Shown one piece after another: positions 18,493 to 64,000 of a stretch of 64,000 nt of DNA. The stretch's first letter is position 1, and every line of letters begins with the position of its first letter. This DNA comes from Basidiobolus meristosporus CBS 931.73 (lineage: Eukaryota > Basidiobolomycota > Basidiobolomycetes > Basidiobolales > Basidiobolaceae), in the NCBI GenBank assembly GCA_002104905.1, contig MCFE01000271.1, positions 42,169 to 106,168 of the forward strand. Direction: 5' to 3'. The notes beneath the pieces were generated by a model. That model saw only the letters and a program-made list of their open reading frames with translations. It did no database searches and had not been told where the DNA came from. A program made the position numbers and the translations under genes.

Positions 18493-21400
18493 AATATCAG
18501 GAAGAAGTCAGATGATCATGTCAAAATTAGCAATTGCACTCTAAGCTCTGATGCTTGTTGGAAGTACTATGCTTATGGAATCATTGCTGACATACAACGA
18601 AATCCACCTGGGTGGAGATGGTAGTCATCCAACAACTTGCATGGAATGCTAGCAAGGCTACGTGAACAGCTAAAATAAATGGTAACAAAGAAGTTCGAAT
18701 ATCAAGAGGTTGTCGTGAACCAGGCGTACAGGAAAGACCCACGCTACTCCAATTGGTCATCTACTTATCCACCAGCTCTATGAAGTACTACCAGCGATCA
18801 GAAAGATGTCAATGGGTGGTCTTCTCGCTGGTGTTGCCATTCTGAAGAAGGTTGATGGCATGGATGGCACGGACAGCGGTGCGCACTTTCTCAATGTTCG
18901 AGGTGACTCGAGTATTCAGCTCCTTCTCAATCTTTCGTGCCGATAGCTTTCTGCGACGAGTGGGTGTGGGCCAGAGCTTGGCGGTAAGCTCAAATGACCA
19001 AATGCGGAACATGAACACCTTGACAAAGTCGAGCACAACAAAGTACCCAAGTGAGATGGCAATCACACTGCATCCCCATCCCCAGCCAATTGCTGTAGTG
19101 AGCCCGGGAACGCCAAACACCGAGATCAGCATGGCAAACACCTGAGTGCCGAGAATAGCAATCGTGAACGTCCAGGACGGGAGGTTCTCCCAGAAGAAGC
19201 CGCTCAAACGAGTCGAGAAGATCACGAAATGAGGACATGACGAGATGTGTAGGTACATGATGGTACCAAGCTCGTCATTCGTCACGTTAAACACGTCCCG
19301 AGCAATGAAGAAGTGGGCAAACGAGGCCCCAGTAAGGAATACCGCCAACGTGAACGACATGGTGATCAGCTGTCCGATGCGCCACTTGTCCGGCTTGGCT
19401 GAGATTTGCGCGTTGTCCACGGAGATGACCAAGGTGGCGGCATCATTCAAGACCGCAATGAAGATCAGCAGGATGGCGTCGAGCTGCCATTGGAAGATGA
19501 TGGTCACAAAGAAGAAGAACAACAGGAAGTGGATGGTGGAGGTGATACGGTACAATGCGTATGATCTCATTCGCTGGAAGATCGCTCTGGACGTGGTGAT
19601 CCCGTCGACAATGGTGGAAAGACCGGGAGCGAGGAGTACAATGTCCGATGCTGAGCGTGCCGCGTCAGTGCACCCGTGGACTGCAATCCCTACGTTTGCC
19701 TTCTTCAGTGCTGGTGCATCGTTCACTCCATCCCCGGTCATTCCGACAAGCAACCCTTGCTCCTGAAGCAACTCGACCACCCTGTACTTGTGCTCCGGAA
19801 CAACCTGGGCAAACCCGTCCGCCTTCACACATCGGCGAACAATCTCTTCCTCGGGGACATCCGCCTCCACGAGCTTCTGCGCCTCGAGAATCGCCCTTTG
19901 CATTCCCAAACGCTGCGCCACCTCCTTCGCGATGATCAGCTGGTCGCCCGTGATCATCTTCACCGAAACCCCCATCTCGTGGCACCGAGCGATGGTCGCG
20001 GCGGAGTCTGGTCGAGGTGGGTCCAACAGTGAGATCATTCCAATCAGCTCCCACTGCTCGATGTCTCCATTGATCGTCCGTGCCACGCCCAGCGCACGCA
20101 GTCCACGTCGTGCCAGACTGTTGACAGCATGGATGGCATCATCGTTCCCACCAACTAGCTTGATGATCACCTGCGGCGCCCCCTTGGCTACCTTGAACAC
20201 CTCCCCTGTCTCCTCGTTCAGGATTGTTGCTTGGGTAAGTTTGGTGACCGGGTTGAACGGCAGGAACGAGGTGGTCTTGAACCCGGGAATCTTGGTTTCC
20301 TTCTCCCCAAGACTCTGCAGCGTGTCAAGTTGTGCTCTAGCGGCTGTACGGACTGCGTACTCGATCGGGTCGTTGGCCCCTTGCTCGGCCGCCATGTACG
20401 AGTACATCAGGATATCATCGCTGGTGTAGCCCTTGCACAGCCATGGCTCATCGAACGTGAGCTCATTCAGGGTGAGTGTGCCGGTCTTGTCGGAACAAAG
20501 CACTGACACGGATGCCATCTCCTCCACCGCAGTCAACCGCTTGACGATCACCTCCTTCTTCGCGAGCTGTTTGGCGCCCACTGCCATCGTCACCGACATC
20601 ACTGTTGGAAGTCCGACCGGAATGGCCGCCACCGTGAGTACCAGTACTTGGCGCAGAATATCGAGAACGTTGTGTCCCTTGTCCTTCACCATGAGAACGA
20701 TGAAGATGATCACCACAAGGAGAATCGTCACCAACACCAGGAAGTTACCAATACGGTTGATGATCTTCTGGAAGTGCCCTTGCTCGTTGGTGTTCGACAT
20801 CAGTGTGGCTGCCCGGCCGATGAAGGTATGCTCGCCCGTCTTCGTGACAACCCCCATCTGCTGTCCCTGCTTGACGATGGAGGATGAGTATGCCGTGGCT
20901 CCCTTCCCCTTGCTCACCGGAAGCGATTCTCCTGTCAACGCTGACTGGTCGATCTGGAGATTTCCCTCCACCGGCTCGCCGTGAACCCCGATCCCGAGAA
21001 GACGGCAATCCGCTGGGACGATATCCCCGAGTCGAAGGACAATCACATCCCCAGGAACCAGGTCAACAACATCAATCTCATTCAGCTCCCCGTCTCTCCA
21101 AACTCGCGTCTTCAGCGCAAGCGTGTTCTTCAGCGCGTCCAGTGCATTCTCCGCCTTCGACTCCTCGATGAATCCGATCGCCGCATTGATGAACAACAAG
21201 GCTCCGATGATTCCGAAGTTGGCCCAATCCTGGACAACCCCCGAGAGGATCCATGCGATCTCAATCAAGTACGCGATTGCTCCAGTGAAGTACCCAAGGA
21301 ACTTCAGGAACGGGTTTTTCTTCTTCTCCGACAATTCGTTCCGCCCAAACTGCTCCAAGCGCTGAGCAACTTCAGCGGAGGTGAGACCCTTGGCCGGATC

Positions 21401-21502
21401 GGTGTGGAGCAGGGCTTCAAGCTCAGGAGGGATCTCTTCTGCCATCTCCTGATGCTTGTGGTCTTCAAGCTCGACTTTGTTCTTTTCTTCTTCTACCGGC
21501 AT
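18493..21502 (-). repeat. Left arm of the H+-ATPase inverted repeat
   Basis: About 3.0 kb nearly identical, in reverse orientation, to 25,659-28,668. The arm covers the whole ATPase coding sequence plus about 316 bp of 3' flank. Identity begins at AATATCAGGAAGAAG on the outer side and stops at the start codon on the inner side. Confidence 0.95.
18809..21502 (-). CDS. P3A plasma-membrane H+-ATPase, copy 1
   Basis: Single-exon 897-residue proton pump that would energise the plasma membrane using ATP. Motifs in order: TM1-2 at about residues 65-113 with Asn106, the actuator TGES at 190-193, TM4 PVGLP at 295-299, the phosphorylated Asp338 in CSDKTGTLTLNE, KGAPQ near 440, MITGDQ near 516, the hinge TGDGVNDAP at 589-597, and Asp687 in the VLNDAAT of TM6. 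Asn106 and Asp687 sit where plant AHA2 has its proton-coordinating Asn106 and Asp684. The C-terminus after TM10 is short and basic. The NELTFDEP signature is closer to the plant-like class than to yeast Pma1. Start chosen at 21,502; a TATAAAGG box lies about 130 bp upstream (plus positions 21,632-21,639). Identical to copy 2 except residue 2 (Pro here). Confidence 0.95.
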   Translation of the reverse strand: MPVEEEKNKVELEDHKHQEMAEEIPPELEALLHTDPAKGLTSAEVAQRLEQFGRNELSEKKKNPFLKFLGYFTGAIAYLIEIAWILSGVVQDWANFGIIGALLFINAAIGFIEESKAENALDALKNTLALKTRVWRDGELNEIDVVDLVPGDVIVLRLGDIVPADCRLLGIGVHGEPVEGNLQIDQSALTGESLPVSKGKGATAYSSSIVKQGQQMGVVTKTGEHTFIGRAATLMSNTNEQGHFQKIINRIGNFLVLVTILLVVIIFIVLMVKDKGHNVLDILRQVLVLTVAAIPVGLPTVMSVTMAVGAKQLAKKEVIVKRLTAVEEMASVSVLCSDKTGTLTLNELTFDEPWLCKGYTSDDILMYSYMAAEQGANDPIEYAVRTAARAQLDTLQSLGEKETKIPGFKTTSFLPFNPVTKLTQATILNEETGEVFKVAKGAPQVIIKLVGGNDDAIHAVNSLARRGLRALGVARTINGDIEQWELIGMISLLDPPRPDSAATIARCHEMGVSVKMITGDQLIIAKEVAQRLGMQRAILEAQKLVEADVPEEEIVRRCVKADGFAQVVPEHKYRVVELLQEQGLLVGMTGDGVNDAPALKKANVGIAVHGCTDAARSASDIVLLAPGLSTIVDGITTSRAIFQRMRSYALYRITSTIHFLLFFFFVTIIFQWQLDAILLIFIAVLNDAATLVISVDNAQISAKPDKWRIGQLITMSFTLAVFLTGASFAHFFIARDVFNVTNDELGTIMYLHISSCPHFVIFSTRLSGFFWENLPSWTFTIAILGTQVFAMLISVFGVPGLTTAIGWGWGCSVIAISLGYFVVLDFVKVFMFRIWSFELTAKLWPTPTRRRKLSARKIEKELNTRVTSNIEKVRTAVRAIHAINLLQNGNTSEKTTH

Positions 21503-25658: not shown

Positions 25659-28352
25659 ATGTCCGTAGAAGAAGAAAAGAACAAAGTCGAGCTTGAAGAC
25701 CACAAGCATCAGGAGATGGCAGAAGAGATCCCTCCTGAGCTTGAAGCCCTGCTCCACACCGATCCGGCCAAGGGTCTCACCTCCGCTGAAGTTGCTCAGC
25801 GCTTGGAGCAGTTTGGGCGGAACGAATTGTCGGAGAAGAAGAAAAACCCGTTCCTGAAGTTCCTTGGGTACTTCACTGGAGCAATCGCGTACTTGATTGA
25901 GATCGCATGGATCCTCTCGGGGGTTGTCCAGGATTGGGCCAACTTCGGAATCATCGGAGCCTTGTTGTTCATCAATGCGGCGATCGGATTCATCGAGGAG
26001 TCGAAGGCGGAGAATGCACTGGACGCGCTGAAGAACACGCTTGCGCTGAAGACGCGAGTTTGGAGAGACGGGGAGCTGAATGAGATTGATGTTGTTGACC
26101 TGGTTCCTGGGGATGTGATTGTCCTTCGACTCGGGGATATCGTCCCAGCGGATTGCCGTCTTCTCGGGATCGGGGTCCACGGCGAGCCGGTGGAGGGAAA
26201 TCTCCAGATCGACCAGTCAGCGTTGACAGGAGAATCGCTTCCGGTGAGCAAGGGGAAGGGAGCCACGGCATACTCATCCTCCATCGTCAAGCAGGGACAG
26301 CAGATGGGGGTTGTCACGAAGACGGGCGAGCATACCTTCATCGGCCGGGCAGCCACACTGATGTCAAACACCAACGAGCAAGGGCACTTCCAGAAGATCA
26401 TCAACCGTATTGGTAACTTCCTGGTGTTGGTGACGATTCTCCTTGTGGTGATCATCTTCATCGTTCTCATGGTGAAGGACAAGGGACACAACGTTCTCGA
26501 TATTCTGCGCCAAGTACTGGTACTCACGGTGGCGGCCATTCCGGTCGGACTTCCAACAGTGATGTCGGTGACGATGGCAGTGGGCGCCAAACAGCTCGCG
26601 AAGAAGGAGGTGATCGTCAAGCGGTTGACTGCGGTGGAGGAGATGGCATCCGTGTCAGTGCTTTGTTCCGACAAGACCGGCACACTCACCCTGAATGAGC
26701 TCACGTTCGATGAGCCATGGCTGTGCAAGGGCTACACCAGCGATGATATCCTGATGTACTCGTACATGGCGGCCGAGCAAGGGGCCAACGACCCGATCGA
26801 GTATGCAGTCCGTACAGCCGCTAGAGCACAACTTGACACGCTGCAGAGTCTTGGGGAGAAGGAAACCAAGATTCCCGGGTTCAAGACCACCTCGTTCCTG
26901 CCGTTCAACCCGGTCACCAAACTTACCCAAGCAACAATCCTGAACGAGGAGACAGGGGAGGTGTTCAAGGTAGCCAAGGGGGCGCCGCAGGTGATCATCA
27001 AGCTAGTTGGTGGGAACGATGATGCCATCCATGCTGTCAACAGTCTGGCACGACGTGGACTGCGTGCGCTGGGCGTGGCACGGACGATCAATGGAGACAT
27101 CGAGCAGTGGGAGCTGATTGGAATGATCTCACTGTTGGACCCACCTCGACCAGACTCCGCCGCGACCATCGCTCGGTGCCACGAGATGGGGGTTTCGGTG
27201 AAGATGATCACGGGCGACCAGCTGATCATCGCGAAGGAGGTGGCGCAGCGTTTGGGAATGCAAAGGGCAATTCTCGAGGCGCAGAAGCTCGTGGAGGCGG
27301 ATGTCCCCGAGGAGGAGATTGTTCGCCGATGTGTGAAGGCGGACGGGTTTGCCCAGGTTGTTCCGGAGCACAAGTACAGGGTGGTCGAGTTGCTTCAGGA
27401 GCAAGGGTTGCTTGTCGGAATGACCGGGGATGGAGTGAACGATGCACCAGCACTGAAGAAGGCAAACGTAGGGATTGCAGTCCACGGGTGCACTGACGCG
27501 GCACGCTCAGCATCGGACATTGTACTCCTCGCTCCCGGTCTTTCCACCATTGTCGACGGGATCACCACGTCCAGAGCGATCTTCCAGCGAATGAGATCAT
27601 ACGCATTGTACCGTATCACCTCCACCATCCACTTCCTGTTGTTCTTCTTCTTTGTGACCATCATCTTCCAATGGCAGCTCGACGCCATCCTGCTGATCTT
27701 CATTGCGGTCTTGAATGATGCCGCCACCTTGGTTATCTCCGTGGACAACGCGCAAATCTCAGCCAAGCCGGACAAGTGGCGCATCGGACAGCTGATCACC
27801 ATGTCGTTCACGTTGGCGGTATTCCTTACTGGGGCCTCGTTTGCCCACTTCTTCATTGCTCGGGACGTGTTTAACGTGACGAATGACGAGCTTGGTACCA
27901 TCATGTACCTACACATCTCGTCATGTCCTCATTTCGTGATCTTCTCGACTCGTTTGAGCGGCTTCTTCTGGGAGAACCTCCCGTCCTGGACGTTCACGAT
28001 TGCTATTCTCGGCACTCAGGTGTTTGCCATGCTGATCTCGGTGTTTGGCGTTCCCGGGCTCACTACAGCAATTGGCTGGGGATGGGGATGCAGTGTGATT
28101 GCCATCTCACTTGGGTACTTTGTTGTGCTCGACTTTGTCAAGGTGTTCATGTTCCGCATTTGGTCATTTGAGCTTACCGCTAAGCTCTGGCCCACACCCA
28201 CTCGTCGCAGAAAGCTATCGGCACGAAAGATTGAGAAGGAGCTGAATACGCGAGTCACCTCGAACATTGAGAAAGTGCGCACCGCTGTCCGTGCCATCCA
28301 TGCCATCAACCTTCTTCAGAATGGCAACACCAGCGAGAAGACCACCCATTGA
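25659..28352 (+). CDS. P3A plasma-membrane H+-ATPase, copy 2
   Basis: Same 897-residue proton pump as the copy at 18,809-21,502, with every catalytic motif intact (TGES 190-193, Asp338 in DKTGT, TGDGVND 589-595, Asn106, Asp687). Ser replaces Pro at residue 2. All other nucleotide differences I found inside the coding sequence are silent: for example GTT/GTC before HGEPVEG, TCG/TCA in LMSNTNE, TAC/TAT in IEYAV, GAA/GAG in VPEEE, GCG/GCA in RAILE. The gene is intronless and visibly richer in G+C than its intron-split neighbours, with strong third-position C/G bias, which also creates long false antisense frames. It has its own promoter with a TATAAAAG box. Confidence 0.95.
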   Translation: MSVEEEKNKVELEDHKHQEMAEEIPPELEALLHTDPAKGLTSAEVAQRLEQFGRNELSEKKKNPFLKFLGYFTGAIAYLIEIAWILSGVVQDWANFGIIGALLFINAAIGFIEESKAENALDALKNTLALKTRVWRDGELNEIDVVDLVPGDVIVLRLGDIVPADCRLLGIGVHGEPVEGNLQIDQSALTGESLPVSKGKGATAYSSSIVKQGQQMGVVTKTGEHTFIGRAATLMSNTNEQGHFQKIINRIGNFLVLVTILLVVIIFIVLMVKDKGHNVLDILRQVLVLTVAAIPVGLPTVMSVTMAVGAKQLAKKEVIVKRLTAVEEMASVSVLCSDKTGTLTLNELTFDEPWLCKGYTSDDILMYSYMAAEQGANDPIEYAVRTAARAQLDTLQSLGEKETKIPGFKTTSFLPFNPVTKLTQATILNEETGEVFKVAKGAPQVIIKLVGGNDDAIHAVNSLARRGLRALGVARTINGDIEQWELIGMISLLDPPRPDSAATIARCHEMGVSVKMITGDQLIIAKEVAQRLGMQRAILEAQKLVEADVPEEEIVRRCVKADGFAQVVPEHKYRVVELLQEQGLLVGMTGDGVNDAPALKKANVGIAVHGCTDAARSASDIVLLAPGLSTIVDGITTSRAIFQRMRSYALYRITSTIHFLLFFFFVTIIFQWQLDAILLIFIAVLNDAATLVISVDNAQISAKPDKWRIGQLITMSFTLAVFLTGASFAHFFIARDVFNVTNDELGTIMYLHISSCPHFVIFSTRLSGFFWENLPSWTFTIAILGTQVFAMLISVFGVPGLTTAIGWGWGCSVIAISLGYFVVLDFVKVFMFRIWSFELTAKLWPTPTRRRKLSARKIEKELNTRVTSNIEKVRTAVRAIHAINLLQNGNTSEKTTH

Positions 28353-58777: not shown

Positions 58778-58789
58778 TAGGGTTAGGGG
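58778..58789 (+). repeat. Internal telomere remnant marking an older chromosome end
   Basis: TAGGGTTAGGGG: nearly two TTAGGG units at the boundary between unique DNA and the retroelement array. Confidence 0.75.
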
Positions 58790-58925
58790 ATGAAAGCCAC
58801 CAAATGGTGAAATCTTTATTTACTTAGTACAAGTATTTAAAGAAGCCAAGTTAATCTGAAGTTGCTCCTATAAAGCTAGGTGTGAAAAATGTATTCCCAA
58901 AAAGCCAGGTCTGAGAGTTAAAGGT
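58790..58925 (-). mobile_element. Telomeric retroelement fragment A
   Basis: 3' end of a non-LTR element, read on the minus strand. It keeps the terminal hairpin CACC-AAAT-GGTG (58,798-58,809) and the following GAAATCTTTATTT block. Diverged from the other copies beyond ~60 nt. Confidence 0.6.
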
Positions 58926-59034
58926 TAAATGGGAGACAGTCACCAACAGGTTAAATCTTTATTTCAGTTCAAATATAGAAGCTAGTACTACTGTTGTAGC
59001 TGTGATACAAGATTATGTAGCTGAGGGTAATTTG
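58926..59034 (-). mobile_element. Telomeric retroelement fragment B
   Basis: Starts GGGAGACAGTCACCAACAGG and matches the E-I copies for about 100 bp (TACTGTTGTAGCTGTGATACAAG), then is interrupted by LTR sequence. Confidence 0.7.
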
Positions 59035-59250
59035 TGTTGAGAATTTTGTAATCACACCTAAATATTCATCCGTCTTGATCACTTAGATCATTGCCTACAA
59101 ATCTTGGAGAATTCTGACCAAGTTTCTTGTTGGGATTTACTTGGATTATTTTCACCAAGACATCAGTTACCCAGAACAGGAGTTTTGATAAGCTGTCCAA
59201 ACAGTCTTAAACTTTGCACACATGCTGTTAGGATCTTCCTGAGTATTTTC
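59035..59250 (+). mobile_element. Truncated solo LTR, family L1, copy d
   Basis: Plus-oriented first part of the LTR (TGTTGAGAATTTTGTAATCACACC onward in pieces), broken after about 215 bp where copy e begins. Confidence 0.75.
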
Positions 59251-59497
59251 TGCTGTAAGAGTCTTGGAGATATTGGAAGTGATTTGGAGAACGAGTAAAT
59301 TATGTGGTTTTCACTTGATGATTTATTGAATGTAAAAGTAGTATTTATACTTTTACATGGTCTTGGCATTACAAACTTGTAGAATAGGTTAAGAAAGGTC
59401 CCAAGTACATATGTGCAAAGTTTGGGGCTGTTTGGACAACTTTGAGAATTTTCATGTTCTGGGTACCAGGTATTTTGGTGAAAAAATTCTAAGTAAA
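59251..59497 (-). mobile_element. Truncated LTR, family L1, copy e, capped by TTAGGGG
   Basis: Begins TGCTGTAAGAGTCTTGG, the minus-strand terminus of the LTR family, and runs 247 bp before ending abruptly at TTAGGGG. The part that would complete the LTR is absent, as if a broken end was healed with telomeric sequence. Confidence 0.75.
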
Positions 59498-59766
59498 TTA
59501 GGGGAGGGAAAGTCACCAAAGTAGGTGAAATCTTTATTTGATTTCAGACAAATCTAACTACAAATAAAGAAGCCAGCTGGGAATAGAAGATTCCCAAAGT
59601 AAAAACCAAGTTGAATATGAATAAACCTAAGCTAAAGTTAAGGCAGTATCCCAGAGTACACTGGAGTTCAGGTTCATGGGGGAGTGAAGTAGATAAGCTT
59701 GAGAGATATAATATTCTTTCAGGAAGTGGGTAACAGCAGGTGAAGGGGAATTTTTGATAAGTGAAG
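59498..59766 (-). mobile_element. Telomeric retroelement fragment C (family 2 tail)
   Basis: After the scar TTAGGGGAGGG comes the hairpin TCACC-AAAGTA-GGTGA. The minus strand encodes the last ~50 residues of a protein reading LIKNSPSPAVTHFLKEYY and LLHSPMNLN...WDTAL, homologous to copy D. Confidence 0.75.
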
Positions 59767-60107
59767 TTAAGGGGATGACAATCACCACAGGGTGAAATCT
59801 TTATTTAAATTGTAAATAAAGAAGCCAAGTTTGAATATGAATATTTGAGATGCAGAAAGCCTACAAGATAAACTTGGACTTTGCTGTATCCCAGATATCC
59901 TCAATATCAAAGTTTAGAGGAGAATGTAGCAAAACTGCTTGTTCACTGTAGTATTTCTTGAGGAAGTTTGTGACTTGAAGGGAAGGAGAGTTTTTCAACA
60001 AGCTGGTAAACCTTTTGAGGAGTTCTTTTTCCAGAGAGAATGGTACAAAGAGTGGAATGTCTAAATGATGTCTGAATATATGCTCTGAGAGCTCCCAATC
60101 CAGCATA
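59767..60107 (-). mobile_element. Telomeric retroelement fragment D (family 2 tail)
   Basis: Scar TTAAGGGG, hairpin TCACC-ACAG-GGTGA, then a minus-strand C-terminal coding piece (59,861-60,106) with LLKNSPSLQVTNFLKKYY and LLHSPLNFDI. It is 5'-truncated directly into TTTTAGGGTTAGGG. Confidence 0.78.
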
Positions 60108-60125
60108 TTTTAGGGTTAGGGGGGG
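60108..60125 (+). repeat. Telomere-repeat scar between fragments D and E
   Basis: TTTAGGGTTAGGGGGGG: one and a half telomere units plus a G-run between two element copies. Confidence 0.85.
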
Positions 60126-60340
60126 AGACAGTCACCAACAGGTGAAATCTTTATTTCAGTTGAAACAAAGAAGCCAGTGCTACTGTTGTAGCTTTGATAC
60201 AAGAGTGTGTAGCTGAGGGGAATTTGTAGGTAAGTTAATAAGAAGTGATGATAGTTCTTCAGTGCTCAAGACACTGTTCAGTGGGAAGGGGGGTAGCAAG
60301 AGAGGTAAGAATGACTTGTGAACAACATTAATAAGGGGAA
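60126..60340 (-). mobile_element. Telomeric retroelement fragment E (family 1)
   Basis: Hairpin TCACC-AACA-GGTGA and about 215 bp of family 1 3' end, encoding the last residues (LINLPTNSPQLHTLVSKLQQ-type). Truncated at GGGGAAT and followed by TTTA plus ten G. Confidence 0.85.
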
Positions 60341-60408
60341 TTTAGGGGGGGGGGAGACAGTCACCAACAGGTGAAATCTTTATTTCAGTTGAAACAAAGA
60401 AGCCAGCG

Positions 60409-62987
60409 CTACTGTTGTAGCTTTGATACAAGAGTGTGTAGCTGAGGGGAATTTGTAGGTAAGTTAATAAGAAGTGATGATAGTTCTTCAGTGCTAAACA
60501 CACTGTTCAGTGGGAAGGGGGGTAGCAAGAGAGGTAAGAATGACTTGTGAACAACATTAATGAGGGGAATGTGATAAGGATTGATATTCATCATAAAGGG
60601 AGTGTGCTGCTGCAGATATTGCTGCCAAAGGTCTGTCAAGTACATCAGGTAGGCCAGCTTGGGTTTTTCTGACTGCAGAATATAGTGAGCAAACTTCTTG
60701 ACTTCAGGATCTCCAAGTATAGTTCTCCAGCAGGAGTCAGGTGTTGTGTGGTGTGTTCTCTTCCAGGCCTTAATCAGTGGGTTGTTGCAGTTGTGAAGTC
60801 TGAGATATAATCTGGTTCTAAGTGTTGTAAAAATTCGTATTTTCCACCTAAATATTCACCTAACTTAGTCACTTAGATCATCACCTTCAAATCCTAGAGA
60901 ATACTGACCAAATTCCTTGTCGGGATTTACTTAGAATATTTTCACCAAAAATACCAGGTACCCAGAACATGAAAATTCTCAAAGTTGTCCAAACAGCCCC
61001 AAACTTTGCACACATGTTCTTGGGACCTTCCTTAACCTATTCTACGTGTTTGTAATGCCAAGACCATGTAAAAGTATAAATACTACTTTTACATTCAATA
61101 AATCATTAAGTGAAAACCACATAATCTACTTGTTCTCCCAATCACTTCCAATATCTCCAAGACTCTTACAACACTAAGGTAGAGAAGTCTGATCTTATAG
61201 GGCATAAACCCAAAAGCACCAAGAATAGCATGTCTGTAGGGGCATTCAGGCAAATGAGGCACCAAGGAGGTAATGCACCATACTGCAAACTTGTCAAGCT
61301 TAGTGCAGTCTCTAGAAGTAAGAGAGAGAAGTGGTAAGCCAAATTCCAGGGCAGGGAAGACAAACTGCTTGAGTAGAAGGAGGCAGCTGGGAGCTAAAGT
61401 TGTAGGAGGAGTAACAGCCAGTAGTTTGTGGAGTGCCTGTCTTGCCAGGATAATTCTCTTCTTCAGGTGTGCTCCAGAGTCTAGTCCAGTAGGAAGGAAA
61501 GGAAAGCCAAGATATGTAGCAGAAACCTGAGCAGGTAGAGTGGAGTTCTCCAAGTTGATAGGAGAGCCCAAAGGTACTGTCTTTGCAATGGAAAGCTGGA
61601 GATTATTCTTCTGCAGATACTGCTGGATGGTCTGGGAGTCTTGTTGCACATTGGAGGAGGATATTCTGATGTCATCAGCAAAGAGAGTAACCAGGCAGTC
61701 AGCTGAGAGTCTTGGGAAATCATTCAGGAAGATGGCAAACAGTATAGGACCAAGCACAGAGCCTTGAACCACTCCATTAGGAACTGAGAACACAGCTGAT
61801 TGCTCACTTGGGTGCAGAATTCTTGCTTGTGGATCCAGAAACAGAGACCTGACAAGGAGGGTGAGAGAGGTACTGGAGAAGCATTGCAACTTGGACCAAA
61901 GCAGATTTCTGTCAACTGAATCAAAGGCCTTAGTAATATCAAACAGAACAGAGGGATACTTGCACTGGAGAGAGTGATCTTGGCTAAGTATGACTGCATA
62001 TTCCAAGGAGAGGCCAGGAACAAAGCCAAACTGTGCAGGATGAAACTTGAGGGAGTCAGAGTAGAGCTCCTGAGCAAGCAGAAGCTCAAACACCTTTCTG
62101 CAGGTGGGCAGCAGAGATATTGGCCTGTAGGAGCTAGGATCCAGGTGCTTTCCTTTACCCTTGTACAGTGGCAGAACATTTGCAAAGGACCATTCCTCAG
62201 GAGTAGAAAGCTGGGCTGAGCATTGCTGAAACAGTGGAAGCAGAAGTGCAGACATGGCCTTGGTACTAGTCTTCAGAAGCTCATAAGAGATTGTGTCCAC
62301 ACCTGGAGCAGTAGAGTTGGGAAGCCTCTTGAGCACATTATGGATTCTCCTTTGATCAAGTGCAAGTGGGATGGGCAGAGTCTTGAAGTCAGGATGAAAG
62401 CCAGGAGTTGAGTACTGCTTTGTAGAGAAGAAGATGTTAGCCAGCTGTTCTGTTGAAGGTAACTTCCTGGAAGAGGGCCTCATTGCCCTGTAGAGTCTTG
62501 ATACAGTTCTTGTTATAGAGTTGGAAGATTGCAGAGGCAAGGAACTCATAATATGATCCCAGAGCTGAGTATGCAGAGTGTGGTGAATTGCCTTGGAGTG
62601 GTGTATTGCTGTCAGGAGGAGTTTCTCTGTTTTTGGGTTAGGGAAACTCAGGTAGCTTTGTTGCAGGGCTGAAACAATGGATTCCCATTTTCTTGAGGTA
62701 ACAGCAGTAGTCTTGCATGGCAGTGAGAGGGAGGCAGACACCAGAATCAGATGCTTCACAAAGAGCCAGGCATAGTTGAGATCATCTGGCAGAGACAGTA
62801 GCAAACTGGCAAGCTTCAAGTAGTTCCCAAAGTCTTTCTTCTGATTCTTGGTAGCTTTGTGGGTGAGCACAGTAAGTTTTGGCAGCTTCTTCTTCACAAC
62901 TGGTTGCATAGAAAGGGACCAGGCTGGATGGTCAGAGGCTCTCAAGGATCCTAGCTCAGCTCCAGAGAATTGCTTAACTTCATTCAC
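60409..62987 (-). pseudogene. LINE reverse transcriptase, 5'-truncated and split by an LTR
   Basis: Encodes the RT that would copy the element RNA onto a DNA 3' end. On the minus strand 62,987-61,179 gives the RT domain: YKGKGKHLDPSSYRPISLL near residue 275, FGFVPGLSLEYAV near 320, motif A FDITKAFDSV with Asp350, motif B GVVQGSVLGPILF near 405, and motif C LFADDI with Asp438-Asp439. Taking out the 351-bp LTR and one CTAAG copy joins LLYL to RTRLYLRLHNCNNP in frame and continues to the stop at 60,409, for 740 residues in all. Without that, translation runs into LTR sequence and ends at 61,095. All catalytic Asp residues remain. The frame is open past 62,987 (a GTG) to the truncation, so the true start is lost. 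Structure-wise it belongs to the LINE/non-LTR RT class; the clade is not certain. Confidence 0.88.
60818..61178 (+). mobile_element. Solo LTR, family L1, copy c, inside the RT gene
   Basis: 351-bp LTR at 60,823-61,173 (TGTTGTAAAAATTCG ... CTCTTACAACA) with a perfect CTAAG target duplication at 60,818-60,822 and 61,174-61,178. Contains TATAAATA and AATAAA in the plus orientation. Confidence 0.93.
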
Positions 62988-62995
62988 AAAGTAGA

Positions 62996-63218
62996 GGGGG
63001 GGAGACAGTCACCAACAGGTGAAATCTTTATTTCAGCTGAAACAAAGAAGCCAGCACTACTGTTGTAGCTTTGATACAAGAGTGTGTAGCTGAGGGGAAT
63101 TTGTAGGTAAGTTAATAAGAAGTGATGATAGTTCTTCAGTGCTCAAGACACTGTTCAGTGGGAAGGGGGGTAGCAAGAGAGGTAAGAATGACTTGTGAAC
63201 AACATTAATGAGGGGAAT
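62996..63218 (-). mobile_element. Telomeric retroelement fragment G (family 1)
   Basis: G-run, hairpin and the same 215-bp truncation point as fragment E (ending GGGGAATTT, then 11 G). Confidence 0.85.
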
Positions 63219-63221
63219 TTA

Positions 63222-63381
63222 GGGGGGGGGGGAGACAGTCACCAACAGGTGAAATCTTTATTTCAGTTGAAACAAAGAAGCCAGCGCTACTGTTGTAGCT
63301 TTGATACAAGAGTGTGTAGCTGAGGGGAATTTGTAGGTAAGTTAATAAGAAGTGATGATAGTTCTTCAGTGCTAAACACAC
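63222..63381 (-). mobile_element. Telomeric retroelement fragment H (family 1)
   Basis: About 150 bp of family 1 3' end matching fragment F (shares its GCTAAACACACT variant), cut there and followed by TTAGGGGG. Confidence 0.85.
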
Positions 63382-63777
63382 TTAGGGGGAGACAGTCACC
63401 AACAGGTGAAATCTTTATTTCAGTTGAAACAAAGAAGCCAGCGCTACTGTTGTAGCTTTGATACAAGAGTGTGGAGCTGAGGGGAATTTGTAGGTAAGTT
63501 AATAAGAAGTGATGATAGTTCTTCAGTGCTCAAGACACTGTTCAGTGGGAGGGGGGGTAGCAAGAGAGGTAAGAATGACTTGTGAACAACATTAATGAGG
63601 GGAATGTGATAAGGATTGATATTCATCATAAAGGGAGTGTGCTGCTGCAGATATTGCTGCCAAAGGTCTGTCAAGTACTTCAGGTAGGCCAGCTTGGGTT
63701 TTTCTGACTGCAGAATATAGTGAGCAAACTTCTTGACTTCAGGATCTCCAAGTATAGTTCTCCAGCAGGAGTCAGGT
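63382..63777 (-). mobile_element. Telomeric retroelement fragment I (family 1), outermost
   Basis: Scar TTAGGGGG, hairpin, then ~390 bp of 3' end with coding tail (63,444-63,674 and beyond), truncated at CAGGAGTCAGGTG directly into the terminal TTAGGG array. Confidence 0.88.
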
Positions 63778-64000
63778 GGGTTAGGGTTAGGGTTAGGGTT
63801 AGGGTTAGGGTTAGGGTTAGGTTAGGGTTAGGGTTAGGGTTAGGGTTAGGGTTAGGGTTAGGGTTAGGGTTAGGGTTAGGGTTAGGGTTAGGGTTAGGGT
63901 TAGGGTTAGGGTTAGGGTTAGGGTTAGGGTTAGGGTTAGGGTTAGGGTTAGGGTTAGGGTTAGGGTTAGGGTTAGGGTTAGGGTTAGGGTTAGGGTTAGG
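63778..64000 (+). repeat. Telomere, (TTAGGG)n
   Basis: About 37 uninterrupted TTAGGG units running to the window edge, with one 5-base TTAGG variant near 63,818. The G-rich strand reads toward the edge, so this is a true right-hand chromosome end. Confidence 0.98.

Follow-up and report, generated by a model that had tools for sequence, protein, structure and literature searches.

Telomere-specialised non-LTR retrotransposons probably built a head-to-tail array at a TTAGGG-capped contig end of Basidiobolus meristosporus

The window analysed here is the whole 64,000-nucleotide stretch of Basidiobolus meristosporus CBS 931.73 contig MCFE01000271.1 (contig C504, positions 42,169 to 106,168), and its last base is also the end of that 106,168-bp contig in an assembly of 89.0 Mb and 1311 contigs. 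The terminal 5.2 kb of the window holds nine retroelement 3' tails in a single orientation (at 58797, 58940, 59515, 59782, 60132, 60361, 63009, 63239 and 63396), followed by 223 bp of TTAGGG repeats. All nine tails are readable on the + strand, with 3' ends inward and 5' ends outward, as the first-pass annotation of this DNA had described for pieces A to I. We suggest that the array is probably one of many built by telomere-specialised non-long terminal repeat (non-LTR) retrotransposons, namely the long interspersed nuclear elements (LINEs) alpha and gamma2 with hitchhiking short families. Of the pieces described earlier as 5'-truncated retrotransposons, B and E to I belong to LINE alpha, while A is short and resembles a short interspersed nuclear element (SINE), C is gamma and D is delta, all three being short non-coding families.

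The innermost scar, GGGTTAGGGG (58780..58789, +), stands on non-array DNA, with eight telomere-periodic nucleotides before its G-run. Piece A (58790..58919, -) is a truncated SINE-like copy related to the short family beta (BLAST 87.9% over 99 bp to a beta stretch on contig C29), with the tail CCACC-AAAT-GGTG. Piece B consists of 105 bp of alpha (58931..59035, -; BLAST 88.6%) at the degenerate scar AAAGGTTAAATGGG and of two broken LTR pieces, one at 59034..59240 (+; BLAST 79.5%) and the second in the opposite orientation at 59254..59498 (-; BLAST 93.9%), which is broken at the piece C scar and forms its inner flank. Piece C (59498..59770, -; scar TTAGGGG) is a truncated gamma, 95.9-96.7% identical to two other gamma copies, and piece D (59767..60111, -; scar TTAAGGGG) is a truncated delta, 90-96% identical to two other delta copies. 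Piece E (60112..60341, -; BLAST 97.7%; scar TTAGGGTTAGGGGGGG) is an alpha copy truncated at about 222 bp, and it forms with F a tandem pair that was also detected by TRF. Piece F (60349..62998, -; BLAST) keeps about 2.3 kb of alpha, ends at about 62990, and is split by an LTR; its reverse transcriptase (RT) open reading frame (ORF) at 61095-63008 (-) matches RVT_1 at E=4.5e-26. The outer pieces are G (62997..63218, -), H (63221..63382, -; truncated at about 157 bp) and I (63385..63777, -; alpha by BLAST, truncated at about 395 bp), the last joined directly to the terminal (TTAGGG)n tract (63778..64000, +; 223 bp). The scar sequences given in the first-pass annotation were all confirmed. The strict scar rule, TTA or more before the G-run, is passed by six of the nine tails and failed by B (TTAAATGGG), D (TTAAGGGG) and G (TAGAG7).

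The LTR that splits the RT gene of F is a 351-bp solo copy with the ends TGTTGTAA...TTACAACA (60823..61173, +), flanked on both sides by the 5-bp target duplication CTAAG. This LTR occurs often in these subtelomeres, solo copies included, and ORFs with a YVDD motif were seen on several contigs that carry it.

The G-H stretch is a duplicate of an E-F stretch, since the E-F junction sequence has only two occurrences in the genome (E-F and G-H, at most one mismatch), H is 100% identical to the 3' end of F over 157 bp, and G is 98.3% identical to E over 232 bp. The F-G joint, TAGAGGGGGGG, has seven G and no TTAGGG. Most simply, a broken end copied the E-F stretch via the common G-run, in the manner of the break-induced repair of Magnaporthe MoTeR elements, although this copying leaves four E-G differences unexplained. 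With G-H copied from E-F, seven additions and one copying event suffice for the array, and the unusual F-G joint is accounted for. The nine pieces of the first-pass annotation therefore do not stand for nine additions, and one addition per scar is ruled out for G-H by the copied junction. The history would most simply run from non-array DNA ending at 58779 with a telomeric scar, through A to D with their LTR pieces and a breakage in B, then E, F, the G-H copy, I and the telomere.

This duplication raises the alternative that arrays are mainly recombination products, with few retrotranspositions followed by break-induced copying and telomere healing, for which we see a real but minority chance. 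G-H duplicates a junction that has no further occurrence in the genome, F is joined to G at a G7 tract lacking TTAGGG, successive beta copies on contig C96 are spaced 525-534 bp apart, and such repair is documented for MoTeR arrays (PMC7367193; this and the other papers given by PMC number are cited for excerpts of their text). On the other side, 30 alpha junctions aligned to the element have 29 different breakpoints, and the only repeated one, at position 218, is that of E-F and G-H, on no other contig.

The scars at the inner sides of the tails were compared across the fetched arrays, in which 82 fuzzy tail matches gave 74 parsed tails (69 forward; 5 reverse, all on contig C27); the 8 unparsed matches, about half of them chance matches by eye, were dropped. 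TTA or more precedes the G-run in 53 of the 74 parsed tails, compared with 15 of 1004 non-array G-runs, so the TTAGGG-like scars first noted in this array are well above chance. The tracts are short, almost all holding at most two repeats: 73/74 scars show under 10 exact telomere-periodic bases ahead of the G-run, a scoring that undercounts interrupted tracts such as C45:2537. Nine alpha copies genome-wide follow three or more exact repeats, and eight contig-end tracts measure 191-223 bp, far longer than the interstitial ones. The inner neighbours of the 74 tails are 45 telomeric elements in the same orientation, 4 broken LTRs and 25 other or unassigned sequences, and scars also stand on very short alpha pieces (by eye, one of about 16 bp near C2:254330 and another of about 29 bp at C32:9370). 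No poly(A) remnant was found at the 74 parsed joints, by parsing rule and eye, the G-run running straight into the 3' motif.

Alpha is heavily truncated: against 907 tails there are 477 sites about 1 kb in and 53 sites about 4.4 kb in, counts that use different patterns, so that their ratio is approximate. Altogether 42 junctions were aligned to alpha or beta, and 28 of them are phased. The telomere-phase overlap at the 24 phased alpha junctions averages 2.08 nt, compared with 0.75 nt simulated, and none of 20,000 resamples reaches 2.08, as expected of telomere healing; 17 of 23 MoTeR 5' truncations have seeds (PMC7367193). Truncation, scars and microhomology thus agree with the earlier proposal of 5' truncation with telomere repeats placed on broken ends. 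The cycles of addition, erosion and repeat restoration proposed with it are retained in part, for truncation and telomere addition, but since the array is partly a recombination product, scars do not correspond one-for-one to cycles.

The TTAGGGG scar could instead be part of the element RNA, if transcription reads through into the inner neighbour's scar; telomerase would then be unneeded between additions. Most scars hold about one repeat and the G-run varies from 3 to 11, as for a slipping templated tail; the scars, however, begin at several phases of the repeat, their repeat number ranges from 0 to 3, and the microhomology between alpha breakpoints and the telomere phase points to telomere addition on a broken end. 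We consider a templated scar unlikely.

The array is not unique in the genome. Tail pattern searches, with mismatches up to 3 (alpha), 2 (beta) and 3 (gamma), counted 907 alpha tails (821 forward and 86 reverse), 486 beta tails (452 and 34) and 263 gamma tails (232 and 31), 1,656 for the three families together. Location was studied at 300 places, 100 per family among the matches listed, a scope that holds for all location counts given here. Of these, 133 (7 reverse), on contigs shorter than 50 kb or with size not taken, were left out, and the location test covered 167 copies (77 gamma, 49 beta and 41 alpha) on 95 contigs that each measure 50 kb or more, with exact sizes. Within 20 kb of a contig end and in the expected orientation lie 165 of the 167 listed copies, 157 forward at right ends and 8 reverse at left ends; an even spread would put about 44 there, and the median distance to the contig end is 3.5 kb. 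Scattered copies in both orientations were looked for, and two of the 167 are outside the end zones while none inside them points the wrong way; a dispersed distribution was rejected on these counts. One of the two, C1:322932, is 22 kb from its contig end, 2 kb beyond the zone; the other, on contig C1202, is taken up below. The orientation bias is absent from other retroelements: among the best 150 of 2913 RVT_1 matches, 37 on small contigs were dropped, and of the 113 places left, whose contigs measure 40 kb or more by interpolation, 59 are interior, 30 forward and 29 reverse, with 15/18 interior in a subset of hand-picked places on exact-size contigs.

We also sampled the ends of contigs of size rank 104-123. 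TTAGGG was found at 0/20 left and 6/19 right ends, and a LINE match at 1/20 left and 8/19 right ends (300 bp per end, 2.5 kb for one left end), one right match being only 87 bp at 84%. The last 300 bp of the six TTAGGG-capped ends matched alpha twice, an LTR once and gamma weakly once, with no match in two. Many contig ends thus lie inside arrays or elsewhere, and contig ends serve here as a proxy for chromosome ends. Genome-wide, (TTAGGG)6 has 6568 forward and 68 reverse matches, the repeats being almost only at right contig ends. On contig C27 (19.9 kb) all five parsed tails are reverse, as for a left-end array without a telomere.

An assembly artefact, with contigs breaking at repeats or pieces in the wrong order, is very improbable. 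The skew of TTAGGG to right ends means that the assembler handled the two ends differently, perhaps by dropping the first read of a contig, and many contig ends inside arrays fit such an artefact as well. Repeat breakage, however, would not fix the orientation, with forward copies at right ends and reverse copies at left ends, array order and breakpoints vary between contigs, and the RT is under purifying selection. Assembler orientation or repeat breakage alone was rejected as the source of the bias, left-end copies being reversed and other retroelements unbiased.

Alpha is a LINE; on contigs C29 and C3, the copies that lie between one tail and the next measure about 4.6-4.7 kb. In the C29 copy an ORF of 523 aa precedes the RT ORF, and the RT ORF on C3 is 922 aa stop to stop (RVT_1 E=2.6e-25). 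The alpha 5' region has 100-bp units (two on C29, one on C3) and an embedded TTAGGGTTAGGG, which is intact in 50 of 53 genome matches to a pattern containing it. A second LINE with a related RT, gamma2, was detected on contig C32 as a 474-aa RT fragment with YADD, and over 490 bp its DNA is about 67% identical to that of alpha. The short family beta measures about 528 bp and is often full length; five copies begin at the same 5' end, 261 heads occur genome-wide, and the head contains GGGTTAGGG. Motifs like the boxes of RNA polymerase III promoters were seen in beta by eye (B box GGTTCAAATCC, A-box-like TAGCCTTGTGG). The outer ends of alpha and beta were thus seen to hold a built-in telomere seed, similar to the 5' variant repeats of MoTeR1 (PMC7367193).

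The first 76 bp of gamma are common with gamma2 at 85-91%, and the first 62 bp of delta with alpha at 80-83%, so that the 3' ends of the short families resemble LINE 3' ends. Beta, gamma and delta are therefore most likely mobilised by the LINE enzymes via this similar 3' end, to judge from sequence resemblance. Read on the RNA strand, the 3' end of the families is AATAAAGATTTCACC-loop-GGTGA...CCCC and has no poly(A). All five pairs of the hairpin are present in 65 of 76 tabulated matches, some of which arise by chance, and intact arms carry eight different loops. At C32:2510 the hairpin is TCGCC/GGCGA, a double compensatory change; the arms are otherwise constant, so the hairpin is conserved with little covariation. 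The alpha 3' end folds at -9.6 kcal/mol (z -3.15), and four other ends have z from -1.3 to -4.2.

The alpha protein combines an N-terminal apurinic/apyrimidinic endonuclease (APE) fold, according to a structure model, with a LINE-1-like RT. The RT profile matched LINE-1 in PDB at 1.2e-21, above R2 at 2.6e-8, and the APE part had no sequence match in PDB at E<=0.01. No Pfam match follows RVT_1 in the five of five RT ORFs scanned, and the model is all helical past residue 680 and shows no strands beyond the RT region. A tree of 54 RTs places alpha and gamma2 together with five metagenome proteins in a single group (support 100/100, branch 2.07); the tree has no named reference clades, and the tool warned that long branches meet in it. 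The homologue search gave five relatives at 48-80% and none other above 35% among the 8000 candidates scored, those with the most words in common. Contig C880 encodes a telomerase RNA-binding domain (RBD) that is split into two pieces; an in-frame TAG in one of them may be an intron.

Taken together, these results suggest that the RNA 3' C-run would pair with the G-rich strand close to the base of the telomere, and that the RT would copy outward from the G-strand 3' end, so that every copy would have its 3' end inward; the observed orientation is what G-strand-primed reverse transcription gives. The hairpin TCACC-loop-GGTGA with the C-run would be the similar 3' end that links the LINEs and the short families. 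Most copies would terminate prematurely or be stripped of the 5' end, telomerase would heal the raw ends from short microhomologies, later elements would join at the one or two repeats that remain, and broken ends may also be repaired by copying existing array junctions, as in G-H. The shortness of the scars makes random insertion into a telomere about 200 bp long unlikely. One explanation is that the end had been short before joining; the other is that long interstitial tracts break and vanish, as reported for MoTeRs.

Insertion in intact telomeres by an APE nick in TTAGGG, as for the TRAS and SART elements, with the interstitial tracts shortened later by breakage, is an alternative to which we give roughly a one-in-three standing. 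The predicted APE fold and the nine alpha copies after three or more exact repeats are consistent with it, and the interstitial telomeres that are stable in Magnaporthe contain no more than two repeats, while longer ones break (PMC7367193). Opposing it, the glutamate of the APE active site is aspartate, 29 of the 74 scars have a broken LTR, or other or unassigned DNA, on their inner side, and SART1 needs at least three repeats and poly(A) (PMC7265360), whereas mostly one or two repeats and no poly(A) were seen here.

Several observations weigh against array building by telomere-specialised elements. The copy at C1202:59303 is truly internal, 59 kb from the nearer contig end, and contig ends are not all chromosome ends, only 6/19 sampled right ends having TTAGGG. 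TTA is lacking before the G-run in 21 of 74 parsed scars, and 14 of 42 aligned breakpoints are without phase. The short interstitial tracts, set beside the 191-223 bp at contig ends, are not as random insertion into full telomeres predicts. Aspartate replaces the active-site glutamate in the three clade members that cover the APE site, making endonuclease activity uncertain; 8 of 26 alpha alignments have stop codons. In beta no tRNA was found by Rfam (one copy) or ARAGORN (five loci), and no other credible Rfam match in that one copy. No insertion event was observed.

A further and rather doubtful extension, which we offer tentatively, is that this long-branched APE-type LINE clade with its short parasites is a chromosome-end specialist, whose RNA would be copied onto eroded or broken ends with one or two repeats, largely without endonuclease cutting in view of the Glu to Asp change, as an emergency cap finished by telomerase.

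The window also carries two inverted plasma-membrane H+-ATPase genes of 897 aa, at 18809-21502 (-) and 25659-28352 (+). By eye, their translations differ by one residue near the start; the G+C of the stretch, 0.55-0.57, is above that of the surroundings. Contig C447 has a similar divergent H+-ATPase pair; a protein that NCBI lists under B. meristosporus CBS 931.73 matches C447 at 100% identity over 896 aa, and the window H+-ATPases are its 88% identical paralogues.

No account of Basidiobolus telomere retrotransposons was found in the open-licence literature, which returned only a Mucorales DNA methylation paper, and the string 'telomer' is absent from the excerpted text of PMC11105155 on B. 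meristosporus transposable elements. No telomeric SINE was found in the open-licence literature either, one frog paper containing 'subtelomeric SINE'. The Basidiobolus arrays, with LINEs and several short non-coding families together, would add an independent example of mobile elements converging with telomeres. As a natural system in a host that has a telomerase gene, they lend themselves to the questions whether an RT can prime on a real chromosome end and how short elements hitch on.

The HeT-A, TART and TAHRE elements of Drosophila form head-to-tail arrays with 3' ends inward and 5'-truncated copies, joined by oligo(A). The likeness drawn to them by the first-pass annotation extends to the array orientation only; they stand in for telomerase (PMC5537684), while the Basidiobolus ends have TTAGGG caps, a telomerase RBD is encoded, and the joints lack poly(A). 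Stringent-type LINE/SINE pairs are not known to be telomere-specific. Such pairs share a 3' stem-loop end (PMC5135761), as the LINEs and short families do here, but the shared end in Basidiobolus also carries the C-run that meets the telomere.

TRAS1 and SART1 of Bombyx mori, whose RT belongs to the R1 clade, resemble the Basidiobolus elements in being APE-type non-LTR elements in simple-repeat telomeres. Their N-terminal APE and RT in one ORF are present in alpha, according to the model, and SART1 has two ORFs, as alpha does. TRAS1 and SART1 insert in opposite directions and SART1 ends in poly(A) (PMC7265360), whereas the families here all have one direction and no poly(A) at 74 joints.

The closest resemblance in way of life is to MoTeR1 and MoTeR2 of Magnaporthe oryzae, FoTeR of Fusarium oxysporum and Cnl1, which are telomere-specific with the 5' end outward, in hosts of a fungal lineage distant from Basidiobolus. 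MoTeR 5' ends are always nearest the chromosome end and their 3' ends are joined to telomere repeats, and MoTeRs have telomere-like 5' sequence, a non-autonomous partner and internal relics, two of them with TTAGGG on both sides (PMC12857005, PMC7367193). Their 5'-truncated copies are healed from short seeds, and interstitial tracts at stable ends have at most two repeats (PMC7367193). Truncations with telomere microhomology, short interstitial tracts, telomere-like 5' sequence, probable non-autonomous partners and a probable internal relic were also seen here, the last being a gamma fragment of about 140 bp within C1202:58803-60302 with TTAGGG on both sides, similar to the internalised MoTeR relics (PMC7367193). 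MoTeR2 shares both ends with MoTeR1 (PMC7367193), but the short families here share only the 3' end with the LINEs. The MoTeR comparison made at the outset therefore stands for end location, orientation and healing and fails for the endonuclease. MoTeR, FoTeR and Cnl1 encode a restriction-enzyme-like endonuclease (REL) and group with CRE-like elements (PMC12857005), whereas alpha has no signs of REL and a predicted N-terminal APE fold instead. Membership in the REL-type family was rejected on domains (no Pfam match after RVT_1, helical C-terminal model, APE fold), and for this reason the array elements were not filed with MoTeR, FoTeR and Cnl1. The fungal telomeric retrotransposons found in the open-licence literature are REL-type (PMC12857005), and an APE-type lineage in an early-diverging fungus would thus have reached the same chromosome-end life.

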